Assembly (NCBI GenBank): GCA_030272155.1
Contig: CP126194.1
Span: 310,001-374,000 of the forward strand
Length of the DNA stretch: 64,000 bases
Source: Tetradesmus obliquus
Taxonomy: Eukaryota > Chlorophyta > Chlorophyceae > Sphaeropleales > Scenedesmaceae
Direction of reading: 5' to 3'
The notes below the pieces were generated by a model, which saw nothing but the letters and a program-made list of their open reading frames with translations, was not told the origin of the DNA and searched no databases. The position numbers and the translations under genes were made by a program. Below, one piece after another: positions 33,058 through 57,891 of this stretch (positions within the stretch are counted from its first letter, which is position 1; the number at the start of each line of letters is the position of its first letter).

Positions 33058-34923
33058 TCAGCTCGACTGCTGCTGCTGCTGCTCCTCTGCAGGTGTGCGC
33101 CGGCCCCGCTGCCGCCAAAACTCTCTGCGCTTGCTGCTGCGCTGCGAGGGCGGCAGCAGCAGCACGCGCGGCGGGAAACTGCCAGCCTCGCACCGGAACA
33201 CAGCCAGCAGCAGGCCGGCCTCGCGGCTGGGCCGAAACGTGGTGCGCTGCTGCTGCTCGTTCCACAGCACCACAGCCGCAAGGTCCTGCCCGTGCCTCGC
33301 CTGCATCAGCGGCCGCGCGAGTGCCAGCGCTAGCACCGCAGTCTCTGTTGCAAACGGACCCATGGCTCGCAACACTGTCTGACCGCGTGCCGGCATGTTC
33401 TGCACCAGGCTGCGCGCAGCTGCAAGCTCGTTGCTGCTGCTGGTGATGTGCACCACCTTGGCATCAGCCCACGGCACCTCCTGCTGCTGCTGCTGCTCTT
33501 CCTGCTCGCCGCCAGCGCTTGCATCACCGCTGCTGCCGCTGCCGCTGCCCTCAGGCAGCGTCACCGCCTGGCGGCCAGCCACGCCAGGCTGCATCGGCAG
33601 CGTCCCGACACGCGTCACATCCAACGCATACAACTGGCTGCGCATCGGCGTGCGGCCGCCTCGCAGCGTGGGCTGCATCAGGATGTTGACAGGCTCGCCA
33701 CCATTGCCCTCCCCCAGCATACGTCGCGCTGTGGCCAGCGCCTTGATTGCCACGCCCAGGGGGTGCGGCCCTACTGCAAACAGCAGCTGGTGCTGGTGCA
33801 GCGCGAATGCGGCGCTGATGCTGCCCGCCAGGCGGCGCGTGAGCGTGTCGGCTGCCACAAAGGACACCGGGGAGGTGAGGTAGGCGCGGCCATGCACAAT
33901 AGACGGTTCCAGCGGCGGAGCATGCAGCAGCTGCTGCTGCTGCTGCTGTGGCTGCTGTGGCTGCCCTATGTCACCTGTACCAGCGGCAGTTGATGCTTGC
34001 TGGCGCTCCTGCTGCTTCTGCTGCTGGGCAGCCTCCTGCATGGCAGCAGCAGGTGCAGCGGCTGCTGCAGAGCCTGCCTTGCCACGGGAGCGCCAGGTAA
34101 GCAGTCGCTGCTGTCTAGGCGGGCCCTGCTGCTGCTGTGCCTCCTGCGCAGCAGCAGCTGCAGCTGGGTCCAGTGCAGGCCGCTGCGGCTGCAACAGCTG
34201 CTGCCCAGCCCTGCCAAGGCCTCTGCTGCTGCTGCCGCCGCCGCCGCCGCTGCTGCTGCTACTGCTACCACCACCATTGGTGATGCCGTTGTTTCTCGAC
34301 ATTGTGCTCTCTGTGTGCTGCCGGTTAGCCTGAACGCCCTCGCTGCTTGTGACCTGTAGCTGCGCTGGCTGCCGCTGCATCGCTTGCTGCAACTTGGCAA
34401 GAGCAGCTGCAGCAGCCGCAGCACCTGTCAAGCCTGCAGATGCTGCATGCCGCTCTGCTTCTGCTGCTGTCGGTGTGTCAGTTGCACTGCCTGCCGTGCT
34501 TGATGAAGCAGAGTCTGCACTGCCTGCTGCCTCGATTGAGGCTGGGGAAGACTCTGCAGCACAACAGACTGACCTGGCAGGGCCTCGCTGCACATGCTGC
34601 CGCCGCTGCTGCTGCTGCTGCTGCAGCACAAGCAGCTGCTGTGTCAGCTCACTTCTGCTGCATGCGCCCTGCCAGTGTGACTGCTGGCCCAGCTGCTGCA
34701 GCTGCACATAGCCGGCATGGCTGACCCTGCTGCAGAGCGCTGCGGGTGCTGCTGCCAGTTGCGGCTGGTGATGCAGCAGCTGTGATGCAGCGGCAAGGGC
34801 AGGCACTAGGCCTGAAGAGCTGCACAGCAGCAACGGCAGCAGCAAGCGATGAAAGGTGTGATGGGTGGGTGCCGTCGCACAGCAATCCTTGACTGAAGAC
34901 AACCGCAGCGTGATGCGAGCCAT
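33058..34923 (-). CDS. Protein with two SpoVS/Alba-like domains, probably plastid-targeted, 621 aa
   Basis: A single uninterrupted exon. The N-terminal 120 residues are rich in Ser, Ala, Leu and His with few acidic residues, and run into SVCCAAES, which looks like a chloroplast transit peptide. A long Gln/Gly/Ser linker follows. Two related globular parts are visible. About residues 347-440 read AGSISAAF...LLFAVGPHPLGVAIKALATARRML. About residues 484-560 read VVHITSSSNELAAARSLVQN, then AMGPFATETAVLALALARPL. The pattern of a small strand, an AxSxNxxA-type helix, then a G-x-AVKA-A-AR helix is that of bacterial stage V sporulation protein S, an Alba-fold nucleic-acid-binding family. The C-terminus is basic (SSKRREFWRQRGRR). 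Assignment is by pattern only; an RNA or nucleoid role in the plastid is inference. Confidence 0.6.
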   Translation of the reverse strand: MARITLRLSSVKDCCATAPTHHTFHRLLLPLLLCSSSGLVPALAAASQLLHHQPQLAAAPAALCSRVSHAGYVQLQQLGQQSHWQGACSRSELTQQLLVLQQQQQQRRQHVQRGPARSVCCAAESSPASIEAAGSADSASSSTAGSATDTPTAAEAERHAASAGLTGAAAAAAALAKLQQAMQRQPAQLQVTSSEGVQANRQHTESTMSRNNGITNGGGSSSSSSGGGGGSSSRGLGRAGQQLLQPQRPALDPAAAAAAQEAQQQQGPPRQQRLLTWRSRGKAGSAAAAAPAAAMQEAAQQQKQQERQQASTAAGTGDIGQPQQPQQQQQQLLHAPPLEPSIVHGRAYLTSPVSFVAADTLTRRLAGSISAAFALHQHQLLFAVGPHPLGVAIKALATARRMLGEGNGGEPVNILMQPTLRGGRTPMRSQLYALDVTRVGTLPMQPGVAGRQAVTLPEGSGSGSSGDASAGGEQEEQQQQQEVPWADAKVVHITSSSNELAAARSLVQNMPARGQTVLRAMGPFATETAVLALALARPLMQARHGQDLAAVVLWNEQQQRTTFRPSREAGLLLAVFRCEAGSFPPRVLLLPPSQRSSKRREFWRQRGRRTPAEEQQQQQSS

Positions 34924-35335
34924 ATGTCATTGTACAAGGTGCTTGACAACGCTGTTGAAAGACAATACTGGCCATCCAGGCAGCTGCAAGGCAATACTAC
35001 TGTGGAGCAGTAGTGCAGTCAGCAGTGGTGGTGGCAGCAGCAGCAGCAACGACAGCAATGACACAAGCAGACGAGCACTCAGAAGTATCAACATCTCACC
35101 TCCACCCCAAACCTCCTCTGTTGACGTGGCCGAATACTTCCTGGCAGCGGCCGCGTGGACATGCAGCCGTGGATTGCATCGGAGCAGCTCGCCGCTGCTG
35201 TTCACAAGCGTACAGTGCTCCACTACGCGCCTTCACAGCCTACTGCGGTTTTATTGATCTGAAGGTAAAGTTTTCAAGACATCTGCCAACTTGTGAACCT
35301 CCACGTGGATGGTGTGCGATGTTTGTGTCAGGCTG
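34924..35335. other. Flank of the transposon insertion site
   Basis: About 400 bases between the SpoVS-like gene's ATG and the left target duplication. It should hold that gene's promoter. A short CAG run occurs near 35030. No other element is seen. Confidence 0.4.
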
Positions 35336-35343
35336 TCTGTGCC
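35336..35343. repeat. Left target-site duplication TCTGTGCC
   Basis: The eight bases directly outside the left inverted repeat. The right flank at 53374-53381 reads TCTGTGCT, matching seven of eight in the same orientation, as expected for an 8-bp duplication with one later change. Confidence 0.75.
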
Positions 35344-35403
35344 GAGATATGGTGTGATAGAACGCACCTCCTCAGGAGGGGGTGTTCTACCGTAGAACGC
35401 CCC
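35344..35403 (+). repeat. Left terminal inverted repeat of the KDZ element
   Basis: About 60 bases starting GAGATATGGTGTGATAGAAC. They match the reverse complement of 53314-53373 at all but two positions that I can see. Inside are a CCTCCTCAGGAGG palindrome and inverted TAGAAC/GTTCTA copies, plausible transposase binding sites. Confidence 0.9.
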
Positions 35404-36024
35404 CTTGAAACTGATGCTGTGTTCTACTTTACGCCAACGACCATGACTGCGGCTTTTAGCGACTTCAGTGACATCGTAACTCTCTCATTTGGAGTTCTTG
35501 AGGATGAAAAGCCCCCCCTATTACGCACTGATATTAGTGATAGGTCTGGGTGGTTGACTGCAGTGAAACAGGTTCACCGATTGATCTAAACTGCATCCTA
35601 GTATTCCATATATAGTATATTTGCTATTCTCAAGCTGCGAGAGAGAGAAAGCTGCAGGGGTATGACAGGCTTTTGGTTTGAAGGTGTTTGGTGTCACCCA
35701 ACCTGCATCCCATCACGGCCTACGATCCTTTGGCATGCACGCTTAACCTTAGTGGGAGATGCGGCTACTGCTTTGCATGTATGGATGCACGAACAGCTGA
35801 CAGCTGCTCCGTTTCCCCCAATCAACCCACCGTGGCTGTGATCTCGCGGTCAGCAGTATGCTCAGCGATCCCGCTTTCCATTAAAAGTTATCTTTTCTAG
35901 TTGGTTGATGTGCCGCCAGGTTCTGTAGTCATGGAGGTCAGCCAGCATAGGTCAACAGGAACAGTCTTTGCCCCCGGTTACACAAGGACAGGCAACTGCA
36001 GTGCAGCACCACCTTCAGCAGCAG
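35404..36024. other. Left subterminal region of the transposon, ORF2 promoter side
   Basis: About 600 bases between the left inverted repeat and the first in-frame ATG of ORF2. Another GTTCTAC occurs at about 35421. An ATG at 35931 opens a short separate frame ending near 36060. No splice donor makes it a convincing first exon. Confidence 0.4.
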
Positions 36025-36549
36025 ATGCTGCAGCCGCTCCAGCACCCACCAGGTTCACTTGATGCTGCACAGCTTAGCACTGCCCCTGCCATGGGTAGTG
36101 GCGCTTGCAGTGCCTCAGGGCAGCAGCTGCAGTCTGAAACAGGCTGTACACGATTTGCAGCCGGCGCTGGCATACACCATATGCAGCAGCAGCAGCAGCA
36201 GCGGCAGCAGCAGCAGCACCTACAGCAAGCACCATTGCATGCTGAGGCAGCTGCTGCCTTCACTGCCTTACAAGCAGGACAGGCTGTGGCTGCTGCTGCA
36301 GATGCATGTGTTGCTCAGTACATGGCAGGCCTGCAGCACCAAGAGGCATCAGCTGCAGATGGCCCTGCTGCAAGCAACCCTCCAGAAGCTTCTGCGGGTG
36401 GTTGGGTTGCATGCAACACCATGCCACAGCAGCAGCAGCAGCAGCAGCACCAAGAAGTCACGCAGCAGTGTGGCAATTGGACTGGTCAACACAGGACTGC
36501 GCAACTGCAGCAGCAGCAGCAGCCACAGCAGCAGCAGCACCAACAGCAG

Positions 36550-36581
<32 letters not shown>

Positions 36582-39570
36582 ATAGGAACACCACGTGCAA
36601 CAGCAGCAGCAGCAGCATCCCTTGCAACAGCAACAACAGGGGCAGCAACCACAGCAACAACCACAACAGCAGGAGCAGCAGCAGCAGCAGCAGCAGCCTC
36701 TGCACCAGCCGCCGCCGCAGCAGCAGCAGCAACAGCAGGAGCAGCCACAGCAACAACAGCAGCAGAGGCGGCAACAGCAGCAACAGCAGCAGCATGAACC
36801 TGAAGCTGAAGTGAAGACACGTGACACCAAGTCCTACCTTAACTCTAGGGACGAAAAAGAGTTTACACTCGGCAAGCTCATGGCAGAGCATGCGTGTGAC
36901 ACCACAATTGATTTCCGTCAGGCATACGGTGCAGACTCCGAACTCTGGCCAGTAGAGGGGTGCATCAACAGCGGCTTTGTCGCCACCGCCAACATGACCA
37001 GGAAGGGTGGTCAGCTGCTGAGCCGGGTGTCGTACCACTGTAGCGGCCTCTTCGACCACGATGCAGCGCTTGTACAGGCAGGAAACAAGTTCCTGGCAGC
37101 GTTGCAGGCGGCTGCAGTCAGGATGATTACAGCGGCGGCAGCAGGTGCTGTGCTGCCGGTGCCCCCAAGGACAGTGCGCCGCCAGATTCATGGCTGGGGC
37201 AGTGCTCCTGAGCCGCCGATTGTTGACGTGCTGGGCACTGGCAAGCGCGCAATCCGTGCGGCCAATGCAGTGGCTGCCTTAGTGAACTACGTCAAGGCCG
37301 TGGCAGCACATGAAGGTGTGCACTACTCAGCAGGCTATGTACTGCAAAGCAGTGTTGCCATCGTGGCCATGACTACACAGCCAAACGTAGTAACTGATCA
37401 TGCATACAGGCGCTGCTGTTTACATGTTAGGTACTAAGCATGTGTGCTTCATCAGCGCAACGTATTCACCCCTACAAAATACTCAGAGTAACCATCACCT
37501 GTCTGTATGCTCGTATGGTGCAGGCGAGATCCAAAGGACCGACTACCGCGTGCACAGCGCGAATGAGACCTGCACCTTCAAGGACACCGGCGCCTGCAGC
37601 TGTGCAGGGGCCAGGCAGCTGCTGCTGTGGCCCAAGGAGGTGGTCCTGAGCCAGCCCAAGAAGCTGACTCTGAAGGATGCACTGCTGGTGCTGCAGCACT
37701 TTTCAAGGAAGCTGCAGCTGCTCAGCAGCCAGGCAGCAGCAGCTGACCCCGGCGACCAGCTGGGTGCTTATGTAAAGCTGCAGCCCTGTGCAGCCTTCAT
37801 AACAGCAGCACTGTCAAATCTAGCAGAGGCCGCAGCGGGTCAGAAGCGGAAAGCAGGTGCAGCTGCAGAGGCTGTCAGCACGCCTCGCTCAGCAGCAGTT
37901 GGCGGTAAGTCATCCCAGGGTCTCGTGGCTGCATGTTTGTTGATGTTGCGTTTGATTGGTTCAGATGAGCACTGTATGTTTAATTCTGTGGCGTTCAATG
38001 GACGCAGATGAGCATTTCATGTTTGTTTATGGGGCGTTGATTGGTTGCATAGGAGCACTGCATGGTTGTTCATGTTGCGGTTAATGGCCGCAGAATGCAT
38101 GCACAACATTCTAGCAAAAGCAGCTTTCACCAGTTGTCTGCATGACCTGGTGCACTAAAACCAACATCATGTTTCTGTTCTCCACCTGCTGCATGTTGTA
38201 TTGGTCCATGTCATGCAGATGATGCGTTTGACGGTTTCGACTGGGCAGCAGCTGCTGCAGATGGCGCCACACCTTCAGCAACGCATGCACCAGCCCCTGC
38301 AGCAGATGGCGCACATGACAGCGCCACCGCCGCCGCAGCAGCGGCAACACCAGCACCAGCAGCAGCAGCGGTACCAGCAGCAGCAGCAATACCAGCAGCA
38401 GCCGAGCCAACTGCGGGCGATGAAGCAGCACCCGGGGCGGCACCGCCAGCAGCGGCAAGTGGCTTCGCAGCAGTAGCACCGGCAGGTCTCGCCGCAGCTG
38501 GAGCTGTGCGCGGCGCTGCTCGCGGCAAGCGCCGCAAGATTGCAGCTGTAGCTAGCAGTGTCGCACCACGCCTGCAGCTGCCAGCTGATGTGATGTCAAG
38601 CCTGAAGCAGCGCTGTGAGGCCATGCGGGACCAGCTGCCAGCTGCAGCCACCGCTGACCCGCACTCAATCAGCCACCCTGACCTTGGTGCCCTGATCAGC
38701 GCTGCTGTGGTGGAGCGCGGCAGGCTTGGGGCAAGCTTCCAGATGGCAGATGTTATGGTGAGTATGCTTGTGAAGAGTGCGCTGTCAGGTCCTGTTAATA
38801 TGCCATGGCTCTGTAAATTTTGAACCAACATGTATTGCAGGGCAGCGTCATGTACATGGGATGCTTGCCCAGCAGAGTGCTACTGAACCTGCCTGCGCCG
38901 CATCAGGTGGACCTGGCCATGGCGGGCTGCCCCTGCCCCGACCAAGGCTACCTCCCTGTGCTGCAGTGGCTGCTGCCACGAGCACATGGGCTGTCGCTGG
39001 CGGTGCAAGTGGCGACTGCAGCAGAGTCATCTACCGGCTTGCTCCAGGTGTCATTCAAGGCGCAGCAGGCTACTGTCCCTTCCCTCACACCAGGTGCGTC
39101 ACACCCACACATGGGCGCTGACACTGCTGGTGCGGTGGTTGTTGACTGACTGTGCAATGAAGATTGCTTCTGATCGCGCCCGTACTTTGTAAGCAGTATG
39201 GTCTGAGGAATGATATGCCGGCAGTACTCACCATGACAGACTTGCTTGGCGCATGCTTTAGCTGCTGTTTGATTGTTGATGTTGCCCCACCAACAGATTG
39301 TGTTGCCCCGTGAGCCAACAGCTCATGCCATTTCTGCCCCATCTGTTGCTTGTTTCAGATGCTCAAGCTCAGCTGCTGGTAGTGTGTGAGAGCGACTGTG
39401 CAATTGGCAGTTGGCGAGCAGTCAGCAGGCCAGCGCTCAACAAGCAGCCGCCTGGTGGCATCATGCTGCACGCGATGGTTGCTGACCCTGCTTTCAAGGG
39501 GTTTGTGCAGCGCTGCATGGTGCACCTTCTGGCTGGGAAGGAGCTGGCCGTCGCACTGCAGCCAGCCCCT

Positions 39571-39609
<39 letters not shown>

Positions 39610-41033
39610 TCTGATGCGCCAACTTACGCCGCTCGGGTGACTGTCTACGAGCTAGAGGTTCGTTGTTTCTCATGCAGCCTGCAGCATTTGCAACCGCACT
39701 ATGTGTACTATTGACATGTTGCTTAGTAGCGTTCCGTACGCTGGCAACAAGTCATGGACGACAAGACATGCACGCATGGGATGTGTGTGGGTGCCTGGCC
39801 AGCCTTGTGCACCGGTCATGCTTAGTAGTGTGGTTGTGCCTTTCGAGTGCGCTTGCGCCATGGTTTCCCTGCAACACCGTGCTGCTGCAGGCGTTTGTGC
39901 TCAAGAAGCTGCAGATCCAGACTGCGATAAAGTCTGTCCAGTACGACCAGGCTGGCGTTCTTCAGGCATACGTGATCTGCAACACCTTTGAGGGCATCCG
40001 CTTTGGCAGCACCCTGGAGCAAACAGCAGGCAGCCGCCCAACCATGAGTGTCTACTTTATGCGCGGTACGCAGCAATCAGTTAGAGTCATGATGTTTAAG
40101 CATTGTATGCCAACATTGTTGTGTTACAGCTTTGGGGGTGAATAACTTAGAACCATGCACCCTGCGACTGTCCATCTTGGTGTGAATGCTGATGTTGCTG
40201 CTGTGCATTGCAGGCCTTGGCACTCCTGAGGAGCCTTTTTGGGCAGGTGTTGACCCCTTCCAGCACTTCCAGCACTGCGATGCGGGCATCCTGTGCTTTG
40301 ACTGCCTGAAGGATGAGGTGAACAGGCTGCGGGTGCTGGAAGTGGTGAAGTACGCATCGCGGAAGAACAGCACGCCAAAGAAGCTTGCTGAGGTAGTATG
40401 GGAGGGCTGGCAGAAGCAGCAGGTGGAGTTGCTAGGTGGGTGACAGGCAGCTGCTGAGAAGGCCCAAGCTGACTGCTGCTCTTGTCATGTATGCCTGTAA
40501 CTACACACTGTGTGCCCTACAGGCTAGTGCCAGCTTGTACAGCAGCACTGCCATGCTAGTTGCCAGGGTGATTTATTTTGTGTGTGGAATGACATGTAGA
40601 TGACTGGAGCCGGCGGTCGGGCTGCATTGTCATGCCAGCTGCCATTGCAATGTAGTTTGTGCTTCTTGATCAACATACGTCTTGCTCACTGTGGCGCCAG
40701 TTGATGAGCGCTGTGTGTGTTGCACATGCAGGAGCAATCAAATGGGCGTTTGTAGATGAGGCGGAGGACATGCTGCAGCAGGCGGAGGACATGCTGCAGC
40801 AGGCAACAGTTGAGCGGCTTGCACACGACGCAGCCGCTACAGAGCAGTGGCTGCAGCAGCACCTGGACATGGCGGCAGCGTCACAGGCAGCAGCAGAGAG
40901 CTCCGTACCTTTGCAGCAGCAGTCCATGGCCGCTGTGCCAGAGGCAGCAGTGCATGGTGAGTTTGTGCAGCAGCAACAGCAGCAGCTCAATGATGCGATA
41001 CTGCATGCAGCCGGCTTACATTGCCCAATGCCT

Positions 41034-41067
<34 letters not shown>

Positions 41068-41165
41068 GACAGCAGCAGCACGAGCAGCACCAGCCTCAGC
41101 AGCAGCCTGATGTCGTACTGCTGCAGGCAGCAGCAGCAACAGCAGCAGCACTCGGTTCATACGCC

Positions 41166-41196
<31 letters not shown>

Positions 41197-42088
41197 CTCT
41201 GACAGCAAAACTAGCAGCAGGAACACGTTGTGACCCTGCAGGCCAGGCAACACTGGTGCATGGTGACGCTGCAGCGCTGCAGTGGCACTTGTGGCAGCAG
41301 CAGATGCTGGCAAGTAGCTCTGTTGCTGGGATGGGTGCGGGCGCTGCGACATGCCAAGCTCCGGTTTTGAGCCAAAGCCATTTGGCAAGCGCAGCGTTCA
41401 CCCCGGCACTGTCAGGTAAGATGCTGTACATCCCTCAGGCCTGGTAGCTTGGTCTGCTTTTGTGGACAGAAGGTTGCTAATTTTGCTGCAGGAAAAGTGG
41501 CTACGGCATGGAGTTTTGTTCAGTATCGTCATATTGTGTGTTACACTCTGCAGCTGACACACACAGGGCATGTCATGTTGTGAACCTTGCCATTGTCCAA
41601 GGTTGCATAGCATCATGCAGACGCATGTCCCGGTCACCTTGCTTCACATAATACGAGACAATCAAGCTCTTCCAAACCAGCTTTCATGTCTTCCGCTTCA
41701 TCTGTACATGCTGGTTGCAGGTTCTGTGTGCGCTCCTGGCAGCACGGACCAAGCAGCTGCCGTTGCAGTGGAGCCGCAGGTGCATGCAGGAGCAGCAACA
41801 CGTGCGGTGGGTTTGCAGGCAGCAAGCCTATGCGAGGAGGGCGCTGCAGTCGATAGCGCAGGGCTGGCAGCAGCAGCTGCTGTCGCCAAACATACCCAGG
41901 TCGCTGCTAGCCCAGCCTGCCCATCAGCCACTGCCGCAATGGATGCAGGGCGTGTGATGTCACCATCGGAAATTTGGTGGGGGGGCCAGCCAACTCCTGT
42001 ACCATCTGATACACCCTGTGTCAGCCATGCCGACAGTCCAGTGCCCGCCCTGGCCGGCCTTGTGCGCTCGCCTGGCCGTGCGAATTGA
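36025..42088 (+). CDS. KDZ transposon companion protein (ORF2), Gln-rich, unknown function, 9 exons
   Basis: Not recognised. Exons: 36025-37386, 37487-37904, 38219-38757, 38841-39093, 39359-39657, 39891-40065, 40214-40435, 40732-41415, 41721-42088; phases close over 1440 codons. One TAG interrupts the frame at 36583-36585, inside the N-terminal poly-Gln (CAG/CAA) tract. The first conserved-looking part begins after this tract (VKTRDTKSYLNSRDEKEFTL) and has scattered Cys and His (ETCTFKDTGACSCAGA). The middle contains a basic RGKRRK, a possible nuclear signal, and IKSVQYDQAGVLQAYVICN. Exon 8 is again Gln-rich. The exact start is uncertain; if TAG stops translation the product must start downstream. 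Its position beside the transposase suggests an accessory DNA-binding or targeting role, which is inference. No TET/JBP dioxygenase motif was found. Confidence 0.6.
36583..36585 (+). other. In-frame TAG within the ORF2 poly-Gln tract
   Basis: The codons run CAG CAG CAA TAG GAA CAC CAC, with the same frame open for about 186 codons before and 267 after it in this exon. TFIP11 ends in TAG, so this is probably a C-to-T nonsense change of a CAG codon rather than a reassigned codon. An unseen intron is the alternative. Confidence 0.75.
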
Positions 42089-42099
42089 CCACCTGCTGC

Positions 42100-42700
42100 T
42101 GCAGTGGCAGTGCGAGGGGCGGCGGGCGCTGGCGCACACACGCAGCAGGTTGGCAGCGCAGGCCCGGCAACGATAGCAGCAGCAGCAGCAGCTGGTGCTG
42201 CTGCAATGGCAGCGCAAGCGCAGGCGTGCGCTGCTGCGCACACACTGCAGGTACTGCAGCAAGGCGGGGCAAAGAGGCCACTTGAGTTGGCTGCGCAGGT
42301 CAGGCAGCAGCAGCAGCAGCAGCTGGTGCTACTGCAATGGCAGCGCAAGCGCAGGCGTGCGCTGGTGCGCACACACTGCAGGTGCTGCAGCAAGGCGGGC
42401 AAAGAGGCCACTTGAGTTGGCATCGCAGGTCAGGCAGTAACAGCAGCAGCAGCAACTGGTGCTGTTGCAATGGCAGCGCAAGCGCAGGCGGGCGCTGCTG
42501 AGGGCACAAAGCAGATGCCGCAGCCAGACGGGGCGATGAGAGCACTGCAGTTAACATCTATGGCAGCAGCGCCAGGCAATGGCAGCAGCGCCAGGCAGCT
42601 GGTGCTTGCTGCTGTGACGGCGCACGCACGCAGCAGGTGCTGCAGCAAGGCCGGTCGAGGAGGGGACTTCAGTTGGCAGCGCAGGCCAGGCGGTAGCGGA
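42100..42700 (+). repeat. ~131-bp satellite array, plus orientation, about 4-5 units
   Basis: Anchor motif CAGGCG recurs at 42221, 42352 and 42485 with degenerate units on either side. Unit landmarks are GCTGGTGCTxCTGCAATGGC, CACTGCAGGTGCTGCAGCAA and AGTTGGC...GCAGGTCAGGCAG. The array starts directly after the ORF2 stop, so it lies in the predicted 3' UTR. Confidence 0.85.
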
Positions 42701-42787
42701 CGTTGCTGAGCCTATAGCGGATATTAACAGCTATCGCATGTGGCCATGGCCTATGGCTTTGTTCTGTTGTATAGTTTTGTATGCCTG

Positions 42788-42792
42788 TGTAA
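42788..42792 (+). terminator. TGTAA polyadenylation signal for ORF2
   Basis: First TGTAA on the plus strand that I can find after the ORF2 stop, just beyond the plus-oriented satellite array. It implies a ~0.7 kb 3' UTR containing the array. Confidence 0.45.
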
Positions 42793-44866
42793 CGAGGACA
42801 CAAGGCGGGAGGTGTTCTGGCCCAGCTTTTGCTTGAAGGTGCGCATCTTTGCTTTTTTCATGCTAGACTGTCCATCTTTACAAGGAAGTCTTGATGCAAT
42901 GAAGTAGAGTCAGCAAAATGTGTGGTTTTGACAGTTTTGCACATCACTTAGGCAACGATATTTGTTACAAGGCACCTAAATACCAAAACACCAGCAAACG
43001 ACAAGCTGCTAAATGGGACATCCAGTAACTCAAGTGTTCACTGCAGTTGATGTTGTATTTGCTGAGCTGGGTGTAAGAGAGGTCGACACCGAACGCCACC
43101 TGCCAGCCAGCTGAACACCAACTGAGCAGGCATCAACTGCGCAGCTGAACCAGCTGATGACTCGTCTTGTAGCTGCCCGCAGCTGCTGTACAGTGAGATG
43201 CAGTGCTGGTGTACAACAAGTGTGGCATTCGACGATAAACATAGCTGCAAATCTAGTACTCACCTGCATGCGCATGACTGACTGATGATCATGCCCGGCA
43301 TCAAAGGGCCTTTGATATACATATAATTACCCGGCACTGCAAGTTCTGACTTGCAACAACAGCTTTCATACCTTGCCACCCACGATGCAACAAGTCCACG
43401 AGGGGGTGGCTGCCGGCGTTGTGTGTAGCAGTCAAGGCGCAACTAGTACTCAAGCATCCTGCCAGGCGGCACAGCTCTTGCGCTGCGTTTGGCATGCTGC
43501 ACACTATGCTGCACGGTACACTACATCAGGTACAAAGGCTGGTTGTGTGCTGCATGCAGTAGGTTTGCGCATGTTTCCCTGCTGAGTGTGTCATGGTCCT
43601 ACAGCATCCAGCTACAGTGGTTTGTGTTGCCCTGCAGCACAACCATGAGCATCACAGAAGCACCTAACTCTTTTGCGCGTTGCCTGAACATCAGAAGGTT
43701 GCCCTCATTCGTCTTTGCTGTTTCACAGCCTAAGCACATGGTTTGATTCCACTGTGTGGTGCTAGCAGTAATCTGACGCAGCACTGTCGTCATGCCGCAC
43801 TGCCAGTCCGGAACTGCACAAAGTGTGCATGTGCAAGAAGCATATCTGCAGCCTGCAAAGGCCCATGTACATGCCAGCGGGTGTGGCAGCAGTACAGGCA
43901 GCGTCTGAATTGTGTATACGACGGCGTCTGTGGCGATACACATTCATTGTAGATGTACATTGAGCAAGGTGCATGTGATTGCCTATGCAGCTGAAACAGG
44001 CTCTCACCTGGATGAAAGGCTTCAAGCACAGATAGAAACAGTTGCAGGTATGTCAATGTGCTAGCTTCGCTTGAGGCAGGCTGAGCAGAGCAACAAAATT
44101 ATACTACACAGCGGTTCACGGAGTGGGCCACTTGCTACACATTCAACTTGCACTGGGCACACGGCTTTACTTCAAAGTAAGTCCGCAATTGGTACACCAC
44201 ATGCTGTGATTGGCAGGTGTGGAACTAACAGCGGTTGTTGACCGGCATTACTTGAAAACCAACGCAGGGTTGTCTGACAATCACCAGTATTGACAAACAA
44301 CGCAGTGAGTTGACAGCACCTGCAGGTGCTATGCAGCTGCCCATGCAAGTACATTGCATTATGACAGAATATTACACCCTACAAGTGCACATGAGCACTG
44401 TAATGCAACCTGCACGCAGTGTGCAGCAATCGTGTGCTGCACAAGCCTTGTGAACTATGAACATATACGCCTTGCCAAGGCATACGGTATGCCACGGGCA
44501 TGTGGCTGTACACTAAGTTGTTTTCATGCCCTGAGTGCAACGTATTCAGATTCCAAGTTGCGTGCTGTAATAGTCCAGTGCCTGAGTACTGCATCATACT
44601 TGGGTAATGCCAGTCCTGCCTTCAAACCAAGAACGGCTCTGTAGCCTACAGTTGCTGCCTAGGCAGGCCTTATTTGTTGAGACACTGCTTATACTTTAGA
44701 ATTCATACTTCAACATTGACAGGCAGGCCACGGCCGCATCAATGGACCATCATTGTTGCACTGCAAAAAGTACTACACCGTGGTAGGTGCGCTGCTTGAG
44801 CAAGGCCGCTCATAGTGCCCCCGACTGATCGTGTCACAGCCACTGCAACACACTTGACGTCCTTTG

Positions 44867-44871
44867 TTACA
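44867..44871 (-). terminator. TGTAA polyadenylation signal for the transposase gene
   Basis: TGTAA on the minus strand just beyond the minus-oriented satellite array, mirroring the arrangement of ORF2. No earlier copy was noticed between it and the transposase stop, giving a predicted 3' UTR of about 1.6 kb. Confidence 0.4.
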
Positions 44872-44989
44872 AGGTGATTACGGAACAATGCCAATACCTA
44901 TGTGGTAAGCTGGCGCCACGTAGAATGCAGCAAATGGTCCATCACGCCACAACATACACACAAATCGCACTGTCCATGTGACGGTTCGC

Positions 44990-45945
44990 CACACCGCCCG
45001 CCTGCACTTGCGCTGCCACTGTAGCAGCACCAGCTGCTGCTGCTGCTACTGCACGACCTGCACTGCCAACTCAAGTGCCCTCCTTGCCCCGCCCTGCTGC
45101 GGCACCTGCAGTGTGCGCGCAGCAGCGCCCGCCTGCACTCGCGCTGCCACTGTAGCAGCACCAGCCGCTGCTGCTACTACTGCTTGACCTGCGCTGCCAA
45201 CTGAAGTGCCCTCCTTGCCCCGCCCTGCTGCGGCACCTGCAGTGCGCGCGCAGCAGCGCCCGCCTGCACTCGCGCTGTCGCTGCAGCAGCACCAGCCGCT
45301 GCTGCTACTACTGCTTGACCTGCGCTGCCAACTGAAGTGCCCTCCTTGCCCCGCCCTGCTGCGGCACCTGCAGTGCGCGCGCAGCAGCGCCCGCCTGCAC
45401 TCGCGCTGTCGCTGCAGCAACACCAGCGCTGCTGCTGCTACTGCACGACCTGCACTGCCAACTCAAGTGCCCTCCTTGCCCCGCCCTGCTGCGGCACCTG
45501 CAGTGTGCGCGCAGCAGCGCCCGCCTGCACTCGCGCTGCCACTGTAGCAGCACCAGCCGCTGCTGCTACTACTGCTTGACCTGCGCTGCCAACTGAAGTG
45601 CCCTCCTTGCCCCGCCCTGCTGCGGCACCTGCAGTGCGCGCGCAGCAGCGCCCGCCTGCACTCGCGCTGTCGCTGCAGCAACACCAGCGCTGCTGCTGCT
45701 ACTGCACGACCTGCACTGCCAACTGAAGTGCCCTCCTTGCCCCGCCCTGCTGCGGCACCTGCAGTGCGCGCGCAGCAGCGCCCGCCTGCACTCGCGCTGT
45801 CGCTGCAGCAGCACCAGCCGCTGCTGCTGCTACTGCCCGACCTGCGCTGCCAACTCAAGTGCCCTGTTTGCCCCGCCTTGCTGCAGCACCTGCAGTGTGT
45901 GCGCAACAGCGCACGCCTGCACTTGCGCTGCCGCTGACTGGCCTG
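44990..45945 (-). repeat. ~131-bp satellite array, minus orientation, about 7 units
   Basis: The motif CCTGCACT recurs at 45001, 45132, 45263, 45394, 45524, 45655, 45785 and, weakly, 45916, a period of 130-131. The reverse complement of the unit matches the array at 42100-42700. The unit is not a multiple of three, so the open frames through it change from unit to unit and are not coding. Confidence 0.9.
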
Positions 45946-46455
45946 CACAGCCAAATAACATCACAGTTGTGTCGGCAAAACAGCGGCGTGAGTTGGTGCA
46001 ATGCACAACGAACAACGGATGTACAGCATGCTACCGACGAGACAGTTTCACGCTTAAGCTCATGCTCACGGCCGTGTCTGCACAACACGCATGCTCAAAA
46101 CCCCGGTGCAATCTGGAAACAATCAGAGCCTCTCTTACGACTGAAACGCACACACTCAAAGCACTGCGGTGACAAGCATAAGTACATGGCGCCGCGCCAT
46201 GGAACGGCTGCTGAGCTGCATTTGTCATGCCACATACCATGGCTGCAGTTCTGTGCTTCCAGGCAACAAGCACTGAGGACATTATTCTCAACAAAAGACA
46301 TATGCTTCAGTCAGTTGTACAAACGTAGCTGGTACTCGCCTGTGCTGTGAACCTGCATGCCGTGGGCGGTTGTGTGCTGGCTAGCCGGCAAAGCGAGTGA
46401 CACCTGCACGCCATGGAGCGAATGTCAGCACATGCGGAACAGCAGATGATCTGTG

Positions 46456-49400
46456 TCAACACAGCAACCCACACACTGCGTGAAGGGGCCAGACAACTAT
46501 ACCTTCGCATAGGTTGTCCAGCAAGCGCGCCCTCACAGCAACTGCATCAGCGCCTGCCATGCGGCAGTGCTGCAGGGGCACACCAGCGCCTATGCAGTCC
46601 GCCAGCACAACAGCATACAAGCCGCAGCTGTGACCATCGGTCTGCCGCGGGATGTCCCTGCCAGGTTGCAGGTACACCCTGGGCCAGCTGCTGGTGTCCC
46701 ACCACTGACCCAGCTTGTCATGTGCCTCTGCCTGCACCCAAGCTGCCATGGCGTCAGCGACATCGGCACGACATTCCTGCAAGCAACAAACCACAATTTG
46801 CATCACTACAACCACAAAAGACTGGTGCCGTGGCCGCTAGTGACGGCGCCGCAATACTGCTCACAAGTGAACGTGGGGGCCGCATGCAGCAAGGTGGAGG
46901 ACTGACGCTGCTACATCATGACATGCCACTGGTGTTACTGCATGTTTGTTTGAGGCATCTTTGGCTGATAGATGTCAACCCAAAGGACGCCAGGCACTCA
47001 CCCCCATAGGGTCCAGGTAGAGGATCCTGCACCTGTCGATGTCAGCAACCACCAGTGTCCAGTGGGTATCGTTCAGGTTGCAGGGAGCCACGATGAGGGA
47101 GCAGGACAGCACCTCCCTGCGCGGTGATGTCCACTTGCGCACTGCATTGTAACTGACTGTGCCTGCAAACAGGTACAGGTTGCCCATGAAGAAGCTGTTG
47201 AAGAAGTGGCAGCTGACGCCCTGCATGCCGCCCCACACCCCATCCAGCTGCGGCACAGGCGAGCCTGCAATGTGCGCGTCCCGCTGCTGCAGCCACCACA
47301 TGGCGTCGTTGACCAGCTCATCATCCAGCCACACCCCAGGCCTCAGGCGCAGAAGGCTGTCCTCCAGCTTCACTGGCGCGGAGTTGGGCAGGTGAAGCAG
47401 CCCATCACTGGCAACATGCCCAGCAACTGCAGCCGGCCATGCTCCAGAGTCAACCAGCTGCTGGTGGGCTGCAAGTTGGGTGGGCGATGCCTCCCAGGGT
47501 GGCAACTGCATAGCACCACACACAGCATGCAAAAAAAAAACAATTACGTGAGTGTGACGACCTGTGTTTACCAGATCAATTCCCCGAACACAGAGAGAAT
47601 CATCCCTGAAGCTCTGCACGCTACAGCAGATATGTCACAACGCCCTGCCCATCGAACAAAACATGACGCATGCACCATGTCATCACGCAACACGAGCACC
47701 CCGCTTTGTCATAGTCGAATTTACCTGGTTGCCCCAGGCGTTCTGCCTGAGAACTCCAGAAACCACCAGGTCGGGGCCCTGCCGCTGCTCGAAGCGCCTG
47801 ACCTGCAGCGGAATGTGAGCCCGTGCATGGTGCTGTTCATTGCCTTGACCACCACTGCCACCAACGCCAGCCGACGTTGCGGGGTGATCAGCAGCTGCTG
47901 CTGGCCTGCCACCTGGCGCTGCCTCGGCAGACACTGCTGGTGGTGGAGCTGCTGCTGCTGCTGCTGGTGGTGGCATTACCGGCTCTGCAAACAGCTCGTC
48001 ATCATCACTGCAGCCGCCATCGTCACCAGCTTCGCTGTCATCCTCCGCATGCATGGCCTCCGCCGCAAACTCTTCTGCCACGGCCGCTGCAGCGCCCCTT
48101 GCCACCGCTGCCATGCTGCCAGTGCTGCTGATGCTGCCCTTGTACTTGTCAAAGGCGGCATGTGCTGCTGACTGCAGGCGCAGTACAGAGTCCAGCTTCT
48201 GCTGCAGCAGGAGCATGCGCGTGCGAACAGTGCAAGCCGCCTGCTCTGCCTCCCTAATCAAGCAATGCAGCTGATATTGCTGTGGCTGGGCAGCATGATC
48301 CAGCTCTTCCTCCAGCTGCTCCAGCTTAGCGCTCGCGCGGCTGCGCTGTGCAGCCTGCGCATTTAGGGCAGCAACGAGCTCCTCAACCTCCTGCTGAATG
48401 CTGAGTCTGTAGCTGTTGGTCTCAAAGCTGACCAGCCGCACCTCCTGCTCAGCAGCTCGCAGGTCATAAGCCACCAGCGCCATCTGCTGCTTGATCCTGC
48501 TGGGCTCAGGGTGCAGGTCCGGGTCTGCGCGAGCGGTGCTGCCCCATGGCAGCTTGCCAGCATACATCTGCTTCCGCAGCTCTGCCGGCTGCAGCGTGTG
48601 CCATGCAGGCGTGCCGCTGCTCGCAGCACCAGTCTCAGTCGCTGCGGCAGGATACACACAGCGCAGCAGCAGATAACCAAAGTTGAGCAATACAATTCCA
48701 GACATACAGTTGCAGCAACAGTGCAGCTTGCAAGGCGCCAAAAGGCCGGCGTAGCATCGGCAACAGTATGTCAAGGTCAGTACACCGCAACGAGAACAAC
48801 CTGCAACTGCAGGGGCATATGCATGGGAGACTTCTGGACAGCGAGCGCAAGCATGTGCACATCAGCGGATCTGTGTCCTGCCTTATACAGATGTGCACAA
48901 GTTCCCCCCCCCCCCCCCCCTGAAAGTGATAGAGGGTGCCTCCGCACCTGTAGCTGCGTTGACCAGGTGCTGCTTGGAACGCTGCCGCTGTGCCTCCCAC
49001 TCGACGAGCGTCTGCAGTGACTCCAGCAGCTGACTCCCCAGCTTCTGCATCTCCTTGGTGAGCTTCTGGTGCTCCTTTCTGGCAACGTCACCAATCTTCT
49101 GCTGCAGCCACTGGATCTCAAAATGCTGCCGCTGCATGCGCTCCAGGTCCAGCTGGAAGGCTGCAACCTGGGCGCTGCACAGCATGGCGACTGCCTGCTC
49201 GAGCTCCAGTGACCCCTCAACCCAGGAGACGGTCTCTGGGTGGGCAGCCCGCAGCCGCTGCAGGCGCTTCTGGCTGCACACACGCCAGGCGGAGGACACA
49301 AAGGTATGAGCACGTCAACATACAGAAGCATGTCGCGGACGCTACAACGCTTGGCCAATGTTTACTCAGCACATACCCAACCAGTTAGACAAAGCGGGTG

Positions 49401-52400
49401 GTGCAGAGAGGTCACTAGCACTGCAGTAGTGCATAGCAACAGCGCGCCATGGACTGCTATGTGCATAGCTGCAACACACCTGTGCAAAATAGCAGCAAGC
49501 GACAGCCCCCAGACTCGCTGCACGAGACTGCCGGGCAGCAGCTTTGAGCCATGCCAGGTGATGGATTCCAGCTGCACGATGAGCTCCGCAACCTCAGCTT
49601 GCCAGGGCAGCGCTGTGTGGCCGCCAAGCGCCTCCACCTCGGTGGGGCATGTGCCCCAACTCGCCACCTGCATCAAGAACAGTCACATGCACTTCACGTA
49701 CTGCACTCGTTTGGCAGGGCATCATGACATGACGCTGTGGCTGTGACGTCATATAAGCCAACGCATCAGCCAATGCACTGCCCAGCAGGCTTGTTGGAGA
49801 GGCACACACTGCTGATGCTGAGGCAGGTGAAGGTGTGATTGCCATGTCAAGACAGGCATCATGTGGCATTTATCACACGGATCGCTGCAGCAATATAACG
49901 TAACTGAACTCACCTCCTCCTTGAATGCGGTGTCTACTGCCAGCTGCAGTCTGATTGCAACTGCCATGGCCCGCGCAGCATGGCCAGCCTGCTGCTCGCT
50001 CAGCCGCGCCCTGCGCGCAACAGCCCTACAGCCGCTGGAGACCAGCAGGCGCGGCAGATCACGCAGCTTGCGTATGTTCCACCTGCGGAACAGCACCTCC
50101 AGCCACAGTGCCCTGGAGGCCAGTGTGGCATACTGCAGCACCACGCCCGCCAGCCCCAGGAAGCGGTTCATCTGCTCCGTGGGCTCGCCGATGCCTGTGC
50201 CGCCGGCTGGCACGCGGCTGAGGGCGTTCATGGCCTGGCATGCTGCCATGTGCATGTGTATGTGGAACGGAGGCACCGGCATCTGCATGTGCCTCAGCGC
50301 GAAGGCTTTCTCGTCTGGCGACCAGTCGCTGTGCTGCTCTACCCACTTCTTGAAGTGAGCCTGGAACCTGCGAGGCAGGACAGCCATCAGGTTGCAAACT
50401 TGTAGGCGGAGGCACACAGTGTGATTGTGATGACACGTGGATTGTGTGAGACACAAGAACAACACACATGAAGATGGCCTAGCCGTCAGTTAACACAACA
50501 GTCGCCAAACACAAAGCTGCTACGCACCTGCAGTTGATGTCGTAAATCATGATGTACGGCAGGATGCTGTGCTCGTGCATCAGGACATGCAGCAGGTAGG
50601 TGGCGTATGCCCAGCGCTCCCCTGTGGGCATGTTCAGGGCTGCCAAGACAAACCCGTGCCTGCATGAGCAGCACAATCAGAAGTATAAGTCAAGCAGGAT
50701 AGGCACCGCGATGGAATCGTATACGCAACACAAAATGCAGGAGCTGCCATGAAGCAGTGGCTGTGTTGCAAGCGCTGTCTCTGTTATGGCGAGGTTGGTT
50801 GCAATACGCGCTCTGGTGTGGCTGCATCACACACATCTCACCTGCACAGCAGGGTGACGATGCCGCTCTGATCAAATAGGTCGGATGACCTGCCCAACAC
50901 CTTGTCCGCCTTGAAGGTGTTGCATGGGTCGGACCCAGCGCTGTCATCTTCGGCACCCGCAGCACTGTCCCAGGGCATGAAGTCAGTGTCAGGCAGCAGG
51001 CGCTCACGCAGCAATGGCACCCGCCCTGATGCCCGGCCTGCAGGCACAGGAAGTGAAAGTGGCAGGCACGAACAGTTGAACAAAGTGTGCAGGTGTGGAA
51101 CGCAAGGGGGTCAGCTGAACATGCAGACTGCGCAGGCCAGCACAGGGACTGAACGAGAATGCATGACATGTGAGCGTGGACATGCAAGTCACCGCGGCAG
51201 CATTGACTCACCAGCTTTCGAAAGTGCCGCATCTTTTGGAGCCCATCCACCAGGACTGAATGCAGAATCAAACCTGCTCCCAGCGTCTGGAACACAGCTG
51301 ACCGGCTTGGTCTGCCTTCACCAGCCGCTGCTGGCGTTGCTGCCTTGCCTGCTGCTGCTTCAGGGCTGCTGCCTGCGGCAGCATCCATGCTGTGCTGATC
51401 AGCTGATCCACTGTCACCACTGCCAGCAGGTGCTCCTCCCGGCTGCCCTATGTCTGCTGCTGCTGCTGCTGCTGCACTCGCAGCAGCACCGTCGCCTGGA
51501 GCTACAGAGCCAGGACCTCCTGCCGTTGCTGCGGCTAGGTTGCTGCAGTCACTGCAGACGCCAGCGCTGCTGCTGCCAGCAAATGAGTGCTCACCCAACA
51601 CCCCTTCCTGCTGCAGAAACTCCAAGTGCCCGCGGCGGCAGACAGTGCAGCACCCCGCAAGGCTCTCAGGCGGCAGCTCCAGCCACTGCCGGCTTCCCAC
51701 CTCCAGCGACATGGCAGCGTAGTTATCTAATGCTGCAGCAAAGTACTTCCGGAACACGTCGCTGTTGATGCTGCGCAGCAGCGAGCTGTACAGCTGCTCC
51801 TCCAGCAGTTCGCGCTGGGCTTCTGCTAGCTTGCTGACAGCCAGGCGCTGCACATGCTGGCGCAGACCAAACGCGTGCCGCAGCAGGCGCAGAGTGAACC
51901 ACACTAGGCTGCACTCCTTCTGGGCAAACTGCAGGTGCTCGCCATGAACAGGTGTAGCTGGGAAGCACCCAGCAAGCAGGGCTTTGGCGTTCCAAGCCCT
52001 CTGACCCCGATCCTGCTGCTGTTGCTGTTGCTGCTGCTGCAGCGGCTGCTCCTGACCTCCTGCACCGGCAGCACATCCAGCCCCGGCAGCACCGACAGCT
52101 GGTTGTGCTGCACCCACAGCCGCAGCTGGGCGCACCCCTGCGTTGTCCTGACACCTGTTTGCATGTGCGCAATCCAGGTAAAATGAGGTTAGCCACCAGT
52201 AACATCTCTGAAGCGTTGCTGACTACCATAAACTGCAACCAAGTGCTGCAACCACGAGTTGCACTGCCTGAGTTATGCATACATAAGCACCGATAGAGAC
52301 ATACGGGCGCTTACAGGCGAAATCACTCTGTAGCCTTATCACTGCACTAACATGCTGTTGCCGCTCGCACCTACTGCAGCGCACCACAGGCACCTTCACT

Positions 52401-52746
52401 GTGAACCAAGCAGCGATGTCAATCACAGTGACCTCCACGAGGCGCACTACCTGGCAGTGTGCAACCCCAAGCCCACACACTCCGCATGTGGCACTGCTGA
52501 CAGCATTTGTGACCTGCTGCTGCAGGAACATGCTGTACTGCTGATCAAACTCTGCCTGCTTTGCCTGTGTGTTGAGGAACAGCTCCAAGTTGTCCTGCCT
52601 ATACTGCTGCCAGTTTTCCTCTATCGCAGCTTGAGTGCTGGTGCGTTCTGGTTTGGATTGGGCAGCTGCAGCTGCACCAGCTGTAGTGAAGGTAGCGGAG
52701 ACGCCCCCAACACCTTCTGACGCTGCTGCCCCCATAGACGCTGCTG

Positions 52747-52780
<34 letters not shown>

Positions 52781-53062
52781 AGCAGCTTCTGCCTGTGCTT
52801 GCTCTGCATCGCAAAAGCCGTAATCGTCCCACTGTTGTTCCTCTGAACTCTGCTGCGCTGGGAAGGCGCTGTCTGCTGGGTTTGGCAAGGGGCCAGGTGC
52901 TGAAGAACTGCTGCCAGGTTGCAGTCCACTCCTTCTGCTGCGACCAACAACCCGCTGTGGTTCAGCAAGGGGTCTAAGAATAGTTCCATCAGTTCTGGAT
53001 GGCTTGGTCAAAGGTTTGAGGATCGGCACCCCTGGAGTGTTGAACGTATTACGCGAAGACAT
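46456..53062 (-). CDS. KDZ-superfamily transposase fused to an Ulp1-type cysteine protease, 10 exons, 1563 aa
   Basis: Exons: 53062-52371, 52154-51193, 51037-50842, 50659-50528, 50367-49914, 49667-49480, 49273-48948, 48641-47725, 47505-47002, 46776-46456; all phases close. Order: Gln/Ala-rich N-terminus; a CxC cysteine cluster (CGVCG ... VPVVRCSRCQDNAGVRP, about 188-235); a second Cys/His cluster (GCCTVCRRGH, about 385). The catalytic core has CNTFKAD (first Asp, about 592), GIVTLLCRHGFVLAALN, PYIMIYDINC (second Asp, about 657) and GTGIGEPTEQ (Glu, about 720). A coiled-coil region follows (about 875-1250). Last is a C48/Ulp1 domain with WLDDELVNDAMWWL, NDTHW (His), ILYLDP (Asp) and PRQTDGHSCGLYA (Gln and Cys nucleophile, about 1507). 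It should excise and integrate the element; the protease may act on SUMO. The exon 2 donor needed to keep frame (CGCG|GTGACT) is weaker than a GTGAGT 19 bases upstream. Confidence 0.88.
48905..48920. repeat. Poly-C homopolymer
   Basis: A run of about 16 C on the plus strand (G in the transcript) within intron 7 of the transposase gene. It is a likely site of sequencing or length variation. Confidence 0.9.
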
Positions 53063-53313
53063 ACTAAGAACGCGGCGTTCTCATCACGATTGTTTTACTT
53101 TGTCACCTATATCTGCATTAATGATGTTCAAAAGTAAGAGTAATGGCCTGCCTCGTCACATAGTGGGCCCAACAACTGTCAGTCAATTTGAAGGAGTGTG
53201 TTTTGCGGCTGAAGCTCACATACCAACTCAGATACGTCGATTGTCAGTATTACGGGAGGCAGCAGTGCCCAAAAATGAACCTTTGAATAGATAGAAAGGA
53301 CACCCGCAAGAAC
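53063..53313 (-). promoter_or_regulatory. Right subterminal region, transposase promoter side
   Basis: About 250 bases between the transposase ATG and the right inverted repeat. Its promoter and 5' UTR must fit here or start in the inverted repeat. No TATA box is seen. Confidence 0.45.
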
Positions 53314-53373
53314 GGGGCGTTCTACAGTAGAACACCCCCTCCTGAGGAGGTGCGTTCTACCACACCATATCTC
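53314..53373 (-). repeat. Right terminal inverted repeat of the KDZ element
   Basis: Reverse complement of the left end with two substitutions and one C fewer at the inner edge. It ends in CCATATCTC next to the right target duplication. Confidence 0.9.
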
Positions 53374-53381
53374 TCTGTGCT
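53374..53381. repeat. Right target-site duplication TCTGTGCT
   Basis: Directly abuts the right inverted repeat and matches the left duplication in seven of eight bases, in direct orientation. Confidence 0.75.
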
Positions 53382-56574: not shown

Positions 56575-57716
56575 TGTTGGCATCATTATGTGTACTTGCT
56601 CCAACAAGCCTAGTCATGCCGTCAACGCCCGTCATTGTGCCGCCCACCACCACTGACGCCAACCTGCTGTGCGCCATATTGTCGCCGCCCCGCTGCCTGC
56701 CGCGTCTCTGCTGCCTCGCCGTGCTCTCATCTCTGCACCACACCAGCCGGAGATGTCGCACAACGTGCAGAAGTACGACCGCCAGGTGTACCTGCGCGTG
56801 AGCGAGGCGCAGCGCTGCCGCGTGCACAGCACGCTGGTGATGCCGCTGTTTGGCGCTGCTGCCGCGGGCCCTGAGGCGCGGCCGGTGGCTGTGTTTGAGC
56901 TGGTGCAGGCTGACAGGGACGTGGCCTTCCCCAGCGTCATCGCGGAGCTGCGCAAGTGCCTCAAGGTGGGCGCGGGGGGTGGGTGTTGACTGGCGGCACA
57001 GTGGTATGGCCGGGTGTCAGTGGCAGTGGTGTGTCGCTGATGTATTGGATGTATATGTGTGACCGCTTGTGCCCAGCGTCATCGCGGAGCTGCGCAAGTG
57101 CCTCAAGGTGGGCGGGCGGGTTGACAGTGACGTTGTGTGAGGGTGTGTGGGGGCGCAAGTGCCTCAAGGTGGGGGCAGTGGGGGAGGGGAAGGGGGCCCT
57201 GTGCATGTTAGTGGTGCATGTTGGTGCGCAAGTGCCTCAAGGTGGGGGTTGGGTTGTGGGTGGGTGGGTGGGGGCTGGCAGTGGGGCCTCATGGTGGCGT
57301 GCCACAAGTGTCACAGGGATGGTGCCTCAGGGGGCGCGTTGACAATGAGATTGGTGTGTGTGCCGGGGGGGGGGGCATACTGGTGGCCGAGTGTCACAGC
57401 AAGATGTTGCGGTGTTGGTGATGTTGTTGCTTTGCTGCTGTCATGCAAGTCTATGCAGTGCTGGTGGCGGGACAAGAAGATGCAGGGCGCATGCAAACAT
57501 GCCACGCACGCCCAGCCTTGACCGCTGCCGCAAGTGCCTCAGCGTGGGGCCAGGGAGTCAGGCTGTGATGACAGCACAGTGTCATGTCAGGGCGTCACTG
57601 GCAGTGCTGTGTTGCTGATATTTTAGTTGTAGTTTAGTTGTATTTGGCCGCTGCTGTTTGCAGGGCCAACGCCGCATGCAGGACACATGCGTGACATGCA
57701 CCTGAACATAGCCGCA

Positions 57717-57749
<33 letters not shown>

Positions 57750-57831
57750 TTTGCAGGAGGTGGCCATCTCCCAAGTGACTTGGAACTGGTCACCAGCAGC
57801 GCGGGCCTGCGCAACACACCTACATACTCAG

Positions 57832-57891
<60 letters not shown>

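Follow-up and report, generated by a model that had tools for sequence, protein, structure and literature searches.

The best-described relatives of the element reported here are transposons of the KDZ superfamily. According to passages of PMC12730594, Zisupton elements carry terminal inverted repeats and 8-bp target duplications, the Dileera lineage also leaves 8-bp duplications, and fungal Kyakuja elements have 7-bp duplications and CA..TG termini without terminal inverted repeats. Zisupton and Kyakuja both occur in Chlamydomonas and its relatives, as stated in a section of PMC8226300, and part of PMC10828217 describes a Kyakuja-3_cRei insertion in a laboratory line whose inverted repeats are imperfect and whose target duplication measures 8 bp; for a nematode Zisupton, the relevant part of PMC9297572 gives inverted repeats and no detected duplication. 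Large sizes are also on record: in the portion of PMC12477816 devoted to them, the giant transposons of Ectocarpus exceed 10 kb, with KDZ elements of up to 30.3 kb (6,403 KDZ copies in 8 families), and the giant families (KDZ, EnSpm and Sola-1) contain additional genes and often a pseudogene transposase. The same portion cites the movement of a 31.7-kb KDZ element in Chlamydomonas reinhardtii. Here, we describe an 18-kb element of the green alga Tetradesmus obliquus, located at 35344..53373 in a 64,000-nucleotide stretch of contig CP126194.1 (positions 310,001 to 374,000; the whole stretch is hereafter referred to as the window). In all probability, this is a giant KDZ-superfamily DNA transposon, perhaps on the Zisupton side, which was fairly recently mobile and whose copy in the window is starting to decay.

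The boundaries of the element are sharply defined. Its terminal inverted repeats are 63 bp long, and the left arm (35344..35406, plus strand) and the right arm (53311..53373, minus strand) are identical at 60 of the 63 positions. The left end sequence also occurs at both ends of a second copy, on contig C11, with no mismatch over the first 60 bases, and at one end on contig C13. The 8-mers adjoining the two arms, TCTGTGCC at 35336..35343 and TCTGTGCT at 53374..53381, agree at seven of eight positions. An earlier interpretation made from the letters of this DNA only (the sequence-only reading) had proposed near-matching inverted repeats of about 60 bp flanked by TCTGTGC(C/T) direct repeats, and the measurements bear out both proposals; its coordinates for the element proved exact to the single base.

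The genome searched comprises 104.66 Mb in 17 contigs, and only the best candidates were scored, so that the copy counts given below are lower bounds. The end sequence was found at a minimum of five places: the two ends of the window element, the two ends of the C11 element, and one place on C13. The C11 element (C11:5193886-5211117; 17,232 bp) is a second full-length copy in the opposite orientation to the window copy, and TGCTGCCC stands on either side of it as a perfect 8-bp duplication. When gaps are left out, the window copy, on C4, and the C11 copy are identical at 16,972 of 17,177 aligned positions (98.8%), which leaves 205 differences (1.2%); the long BLAST pieces between C4 and C11, in which gaps are counted, show 96.9-98.3% identity. 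The C13 place contains an end fragment of about 1 kb that is 93% alike, and no right end was found within 27 kb there. The search of the genome with the end sequence, which the sequence-only reading had put forward as a check, was positive in that it led to a second full copy with unrelated single-copy flanks, and the ends, which were to be doubted if they had no other copies, are carried by the C11 copy and the C13 fragment. A pattern scan with the 23-base end, allowing up to three mismatches, detected six places, namely the five known ends and one on C6, and the reversed pattern used as a control detected none. The C6 site (C6:352462-352484) differs from the first 23 bases of the element by three mismatches and is a possible diverged end; among the matches listed between the element and the C6 locus by BLAST, there were only short ones, as expected of CAG-type repeats.

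Two separate insertions of the element family took place in this genome, because the copies end at the element ends, their flanks are unrelated and single-copy, and each has its own 8-bp duplication. With a 23-kb query around the element, similarity to C11 (matches of at least 150 bits) was confined to the element and covered it from end to end. The joined flanks of the window copy and those of the C11 copy each matched only themselves, and this genome search found no paralogous empty site for either copy. If a segmental duplication rather than transposition had produced the C11 copy, homologous flanks would be needed; the small number of full copies found, only two, would suit such an origin, but the boundaries already contradict it, since the similarity stops at the element, the flanks of both copies have no other match in the genome, and each copy is enclosed by its own duplication. 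We regard this origin as having a negligible probability. As for the timing of the two transpositions, the sequences suggest that the family moved fairly recently.

The transposase gene lies on the minus strand at 46456..53062, where a 10-exon model with GT-AG at every intron encodes 1,580 amino acids (exons 1-5: 53062-52305, 52154-51208, 51037-50842, 50659-50528, and 50367-49914; exons 6-10: 49667-49480, 49273-48948, 48641-47725, 47505-47002, and 46776-46456). The KDZ transposase domain (PF18758, E 1e-23) occupies residues 582-775, corresponding to 50076..50999 (exons 3-5, introns included), and its score of 84.6 bits against a curated cut-off of 26.6 places the element in the KDZ superfamily. 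On the same model, a Peptidase C48 (Ulp1/SENP) domain (PF02902, E 8.6e-17; 62.1 bits against a cut-off of 20.7) occupies residues 1404-1558, corresponding to 46525..47214 (exons 9-10); the coordinates of both domains were computed from the residue numbers. The protease part was aligned with human SENP1 (PDB 2iyc; E 5.3e-20), and the four catalytic residues of SENP1-type proteases (His, Asp, Gln, and Cys) line up in this alignment. The gene is predicted to encode the KDZ transposase and the C48 protease as one fused product. Such a fusion, with the four protease residues in place and with YDINC and GEPTE motifs, had been recognized in the sequence-only reading, and each of these points recurs here: the two domains lie in one spliced model, the SENP1 alignment matches the residues, and both motifs occur in the model. 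As for the N-terminal cysteine cluster (CxC) that precedes the KDZ domain in this superfamily, CxC4 (E 0.12) and CxC3 (E 0.23) both remained below their cut-offs in the scan of exon 1, although this exon contains a CGVC and a CSRC pair; for the whole 1,580-aa model, Pfam listed no CxC family. The fish Zisupton of Bohne et al. (in 2012) is said to have a C-terminal Ulp1-like cysteine protease, and a protease of this kind is present at the C-terminus of the model. No description of a KDZ transposase-protease fusion was found in the passages on Zisupton and KDZ elements in the open literature, subscription journals being outside this scope.

A second gene, which the sequence-only reading did not contain, is arranged convergently with the transposase gene at 35931..42088 on the plus strand. 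It is rich in glutamine and alanine and consists of nine exons with about 1,470 codons counted from 35929 (exons 1-5: about 35929 to 37417, 37524-37904, 38219-38757, 38841-39093, and 39359-39657; exons 6-9: 39891-40065, 40214-40435, 40732-41415, and 41721-42088). In the window copy, the nine exons can be joined in phase and contain a single internal stop; the end of exon 1 is uncertain, as it relies on an unusual donor, GTTTAC. In the C11 copy, no stop exists among the 1,452 compared codons, and the first frame is open for 502 codons. The two copies of the gene differ by 28 nonsynonymous and 13 synonymous changes (ratio 0.68), although four of these differences sit in two neighbouring codons and look like an alignment shuffle. 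In the comparison with the C13 fragment, 9 of 417 positions differ in the first part of the gene and 27 of 523 differ in the stretch preceding it (Fisher p 0.017), which may be a weak hint of constraint on the gene.

With regard to the possible function of this second gene, the pieces scanned, which did not include exon 9 or the first half of exon 1, gave no Pfam match above the cut-off of its family and no TET/JBP domain. The best sub-threshold match was HTH_23 (E 0.005; 16.9 bits, cut-off 24.6). Two pieces searched against the PDB gave no match. In the genome, the two element copies are the only matches of the second half of exon 1, and exon 5 matches these copies together with two weak places (E 5.6e-4 and 9.8e-4) whose matches take in the glutamine tract. 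The gene could also be of host origin and carried as captured cargo, without being a factor of the transposon; part of PMC12477816 reports that many giant transposon families of Ectocarpus carry additional genes, most of which have unknown functions. However, the second half of exon 1 was found only in the element copies, and neither of the two exons searched (this half of exon 1 and exon 5) yielded a clear host homologue. We consider the capture of a host gene to be a possibility of some substance, though not the favoured one; the second gene, whose exon structure is given above, more probably encodes an accessory protein of the element.

Several observations weigh against the view that the element is a recently mobile transposon of the Zisupton side, and they concern its target site, its two genes, and its classification. 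One is that the target duplication of the window copy is matched at only 7 of 8 positions. Another is found at the exon 2/3 junction of the transposase gene (51208..51216, minus strand), where the window copy has one base fewer than its counterpart on C11 and the ordinary splice therefore breaks the frame: the ordinary donors are in phase for exons 3 to 10 but not here, and if the ordinary GTGAGT is used, 18 stops appear in exons 2-10 of the window copy. The copies also differ by 2 bases near the end of exon 1, within the zone of the exon 1/2 junction. Among 1,570 comparable transposase codons, 39 nonsynonymous and 13 synonymous differences were counted between the C11 and window copies; this ratio of 0.96 gives no sign of purifying selection, as would be expected of copies drifting after insertion. 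In the second gene, the window copy has an in-frame TAG at 36583..36585 (plus strand), in a glutamine tract, which does not exist in the C11 copy, and directly after the first ATG, both full copies contain an extra base relative to the C13 fragment, so that the start of this gene is uncertain. The last points concern classification: the 8-bp duplication does not single out Zisupton, since passages of the sources cited above give it for Dileera and, together with inverted repeats, for an algal Kyakuja, and on the side of chemistry, part of PMC3706591 (2013) lists Zisupton, under the Repbase scheme, as one of the superfamilies that lack a DDE transposase.

The window copy would still be autonomous if the GTCAAT donor, four bases downstream of the ordinary one, were used at exon 2/3 and the whole transposase were made. 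With this weak donor, and only with it, the transposase frame stays open, all ten exons being in phase with a single terminal stop. However, the GTGAGT found at the corresponding place in the C11 copy is in phase, with 1,353 codons open from exon 2 to the stop, and the other eight donors of the model begin with GTG (6 donors) or GTA (2 donors), none with GTC. Autonomy by this route is thus improbable, and with the ordinary exon 2/3 splice and its 18 stops, the window copy has no uninterrupted transposase frame. The exon 1/2 junction cannot be fixed to one join: as far as the scan reached, GT-AG joins that keep the frame open number 48 in the window copy and 40 in the C11 copy. Because of these many joins and the 2-base difference there, full intactness cannot be claimed for the C11 copy either. 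No stop-creating substitution was found in the 1,570 compared codons. The sequence-only reading had called the transposon intact and perhaps currently or recently mobile. The first description holds for the ends, the duplication, and the fusion, and fails for the transposase frame (exon 2/3 frameshift) and for the second gene (TAG). Of the second, movement stands, the element having inserted at least twice in this genome, probably fairly recently; current mobility is made doubtful by the frame break, the TAG, the 205 differences in 17,177 positions, and the lack of a sign of selection.

The comparison with the known systems provides the basis for a provisional placement. The element resembles Zisupton in its KDZ domain, long terminal inverted repeats (60/63 in the window copy), 8-bp target duplications (8/8 in the C11 copy and 7/8 in the window copy), and large multi-exon transposase, and it differs from Zisupton in its size of 18 kb, its convergent gene (about 1,470 codons), and the inverted array of 131-bp repeats in its interior. 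With Kyakuja-3_cRei and the 31.7-kb element of C. reinhardtii, as far as the cited passages describe them, it shares the character of a green-algal KDZ element and, in the case of Kyakuja-3_cRei, the imperfect inverted repeats and the 8-bp duplication; the movement of the 31.7-kb element was observed, whereas that of the window element is deduced, and the two are compared by description only. The giant KDZ elements of Ectocarpus are similar in giant size, and the giant families of that genome as a group are similar in additional genes and an often decayed transposase, but they belong to a brown alga whose KDZ elements amount to 6,403 copies in 8 families, as compared with the two full copies found for the window family. 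Fungal Kyakuja elements with TET/JBP genes also combine a KDZ transposase with a second gene; in contrast to the window element, they are described in the source passages as having 7-bp duplications, CA..TG ends, and no terminal inverted repeats, and no TET/JBP domain was found in the scanned pieces of the second gene of the window element. Set beside the named subfamilies by description only, the element is perhaps on the Zisupton side, but an 8-bp duplication with inverted repeats fits an algal Kyakuja as well as Zisupton. Size, ends, duplication, and extra genes are already known for KDZ elements, and a fusion of this type is said to occur in fish Zisupton. Because the second gene is an orphan, the element is regarded as a new family and not as a new kind, and it leaves the classification of transposons unchanged.

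Based on this anatomy, a cut-and-paste reaction may be envisaged. The KDZ transposase would recognize the 63-bp ends, and the element of 17-18 kb would go in at a staggered cut, giving rise to the 8-bp target duplications. The fused Ulp1/SENP protease might strip SUMO, or a modifier like it, from the transposase or the chromatin of the donor or target, and the convergent second gene might supply the accessory protein. The family would have moved fairly recently, with two full copies and one end fragment found in the genome, and the window copy would now be mobile only with the help of another copy, if at all. A more specific proposal is that of a two-protein giant KDZ system, in which a SUMO-protease transposase works with a glutamine-rich orphan partner of 1,470 residues encoded head-on to it and the removal of SUMO aids movement or escape from silencing; this is a speculative proposal to which we assign little likelihood. 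With its low copy number, two insertions, and clearly delimited ends, this KDZ family offers a setting for testing a fused SUMO-type protease and a convergent accessory gene, and the picture of an intact element is corrected to one of fresh-looking ends alongside early coding decay.

The genome contains at least 38 matches to PF18758, three of which come from the family of the window element. At E 0.001 or better, four C48 matches were found: two belong to this family, a third lies on C5, and the fourth lies on C10, far away from the KDZ match of that contig. No C48 match was found near a KDZ match outside the family among the at least 38 PF18758 matches, in an exon-by-exon search from which weak domains may escape. 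When 30 of the 38 matches were compared as 3-kb loci, they fell into groups of 11, 2, 15, and 2, where the first group represents nine places (two locus pairs overlap). The other KDZ groups include loci that are about 98-99.9% alike over about 3 kb, and one pair on two contigs is 99.2% alike over 3,567 bases. The element gave no BLAST match to the 30 loci with the low-complexity filter. As judged by locus identity, the window element is probably one among several recent KDZ groups in this genome, and not the youngest. The contrast drawn in the sequence-only reading, that KDZ copies are usually decayed, is unsafe in view of these closely similar loci, some of which stand in a tandem array. Viral contigs revealed no relatives in three scans, for which the queries were the KDZ exon, the protease exon, and the latter half of exon 1 of the second gene.

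The array in question is on C3, where five KDZ matches (C3:7390909, 7415140, 7439356, 7463267, and 7489727) are spaced at 23.9-26.5 kb. Compared with the 3-kb locus of the first, those of the other four show 99.6-99.9% identity, and the first two sit within a repeated unit that exceeds 11 kb and is 99.8% alike; this series looks like a tandem array containing a KDZ gene rather than separate insertions. Members of the same group were also found at C16:1368946-1375651 and 1389153-1395847, in the same direction and about 20 kb apart, with 98.75% identity over 6.7 kb.

Finally, the remaining features of the window element and its neighbourhood are as follows. Three tandem repeats of about 131 bp are located between the two genes (42174..42552), and about eight more copies, as estimated by length, are located at 44905..45949 and run in the opposite direction to the first array. 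At this second array, the C11 copy is shorter by 653 bp, and the repeat number is thus unequal between the two elements. About 0.4 kb to the left of the element, a minus-strand frame (33058-34926) contains a SpoVS domain (PF04232, E 2.4e-10), a family known from bacterial sporulation. On the other side, a very long plus-strand frame (57712-61221; 1,169 aa), rich in alanine and glutamine, contains the stretch FGLGLKEAAANLGICATTLKRACRRNGITRWPRRQIQKLNR, which presumably resembles an RWP-RK domain.

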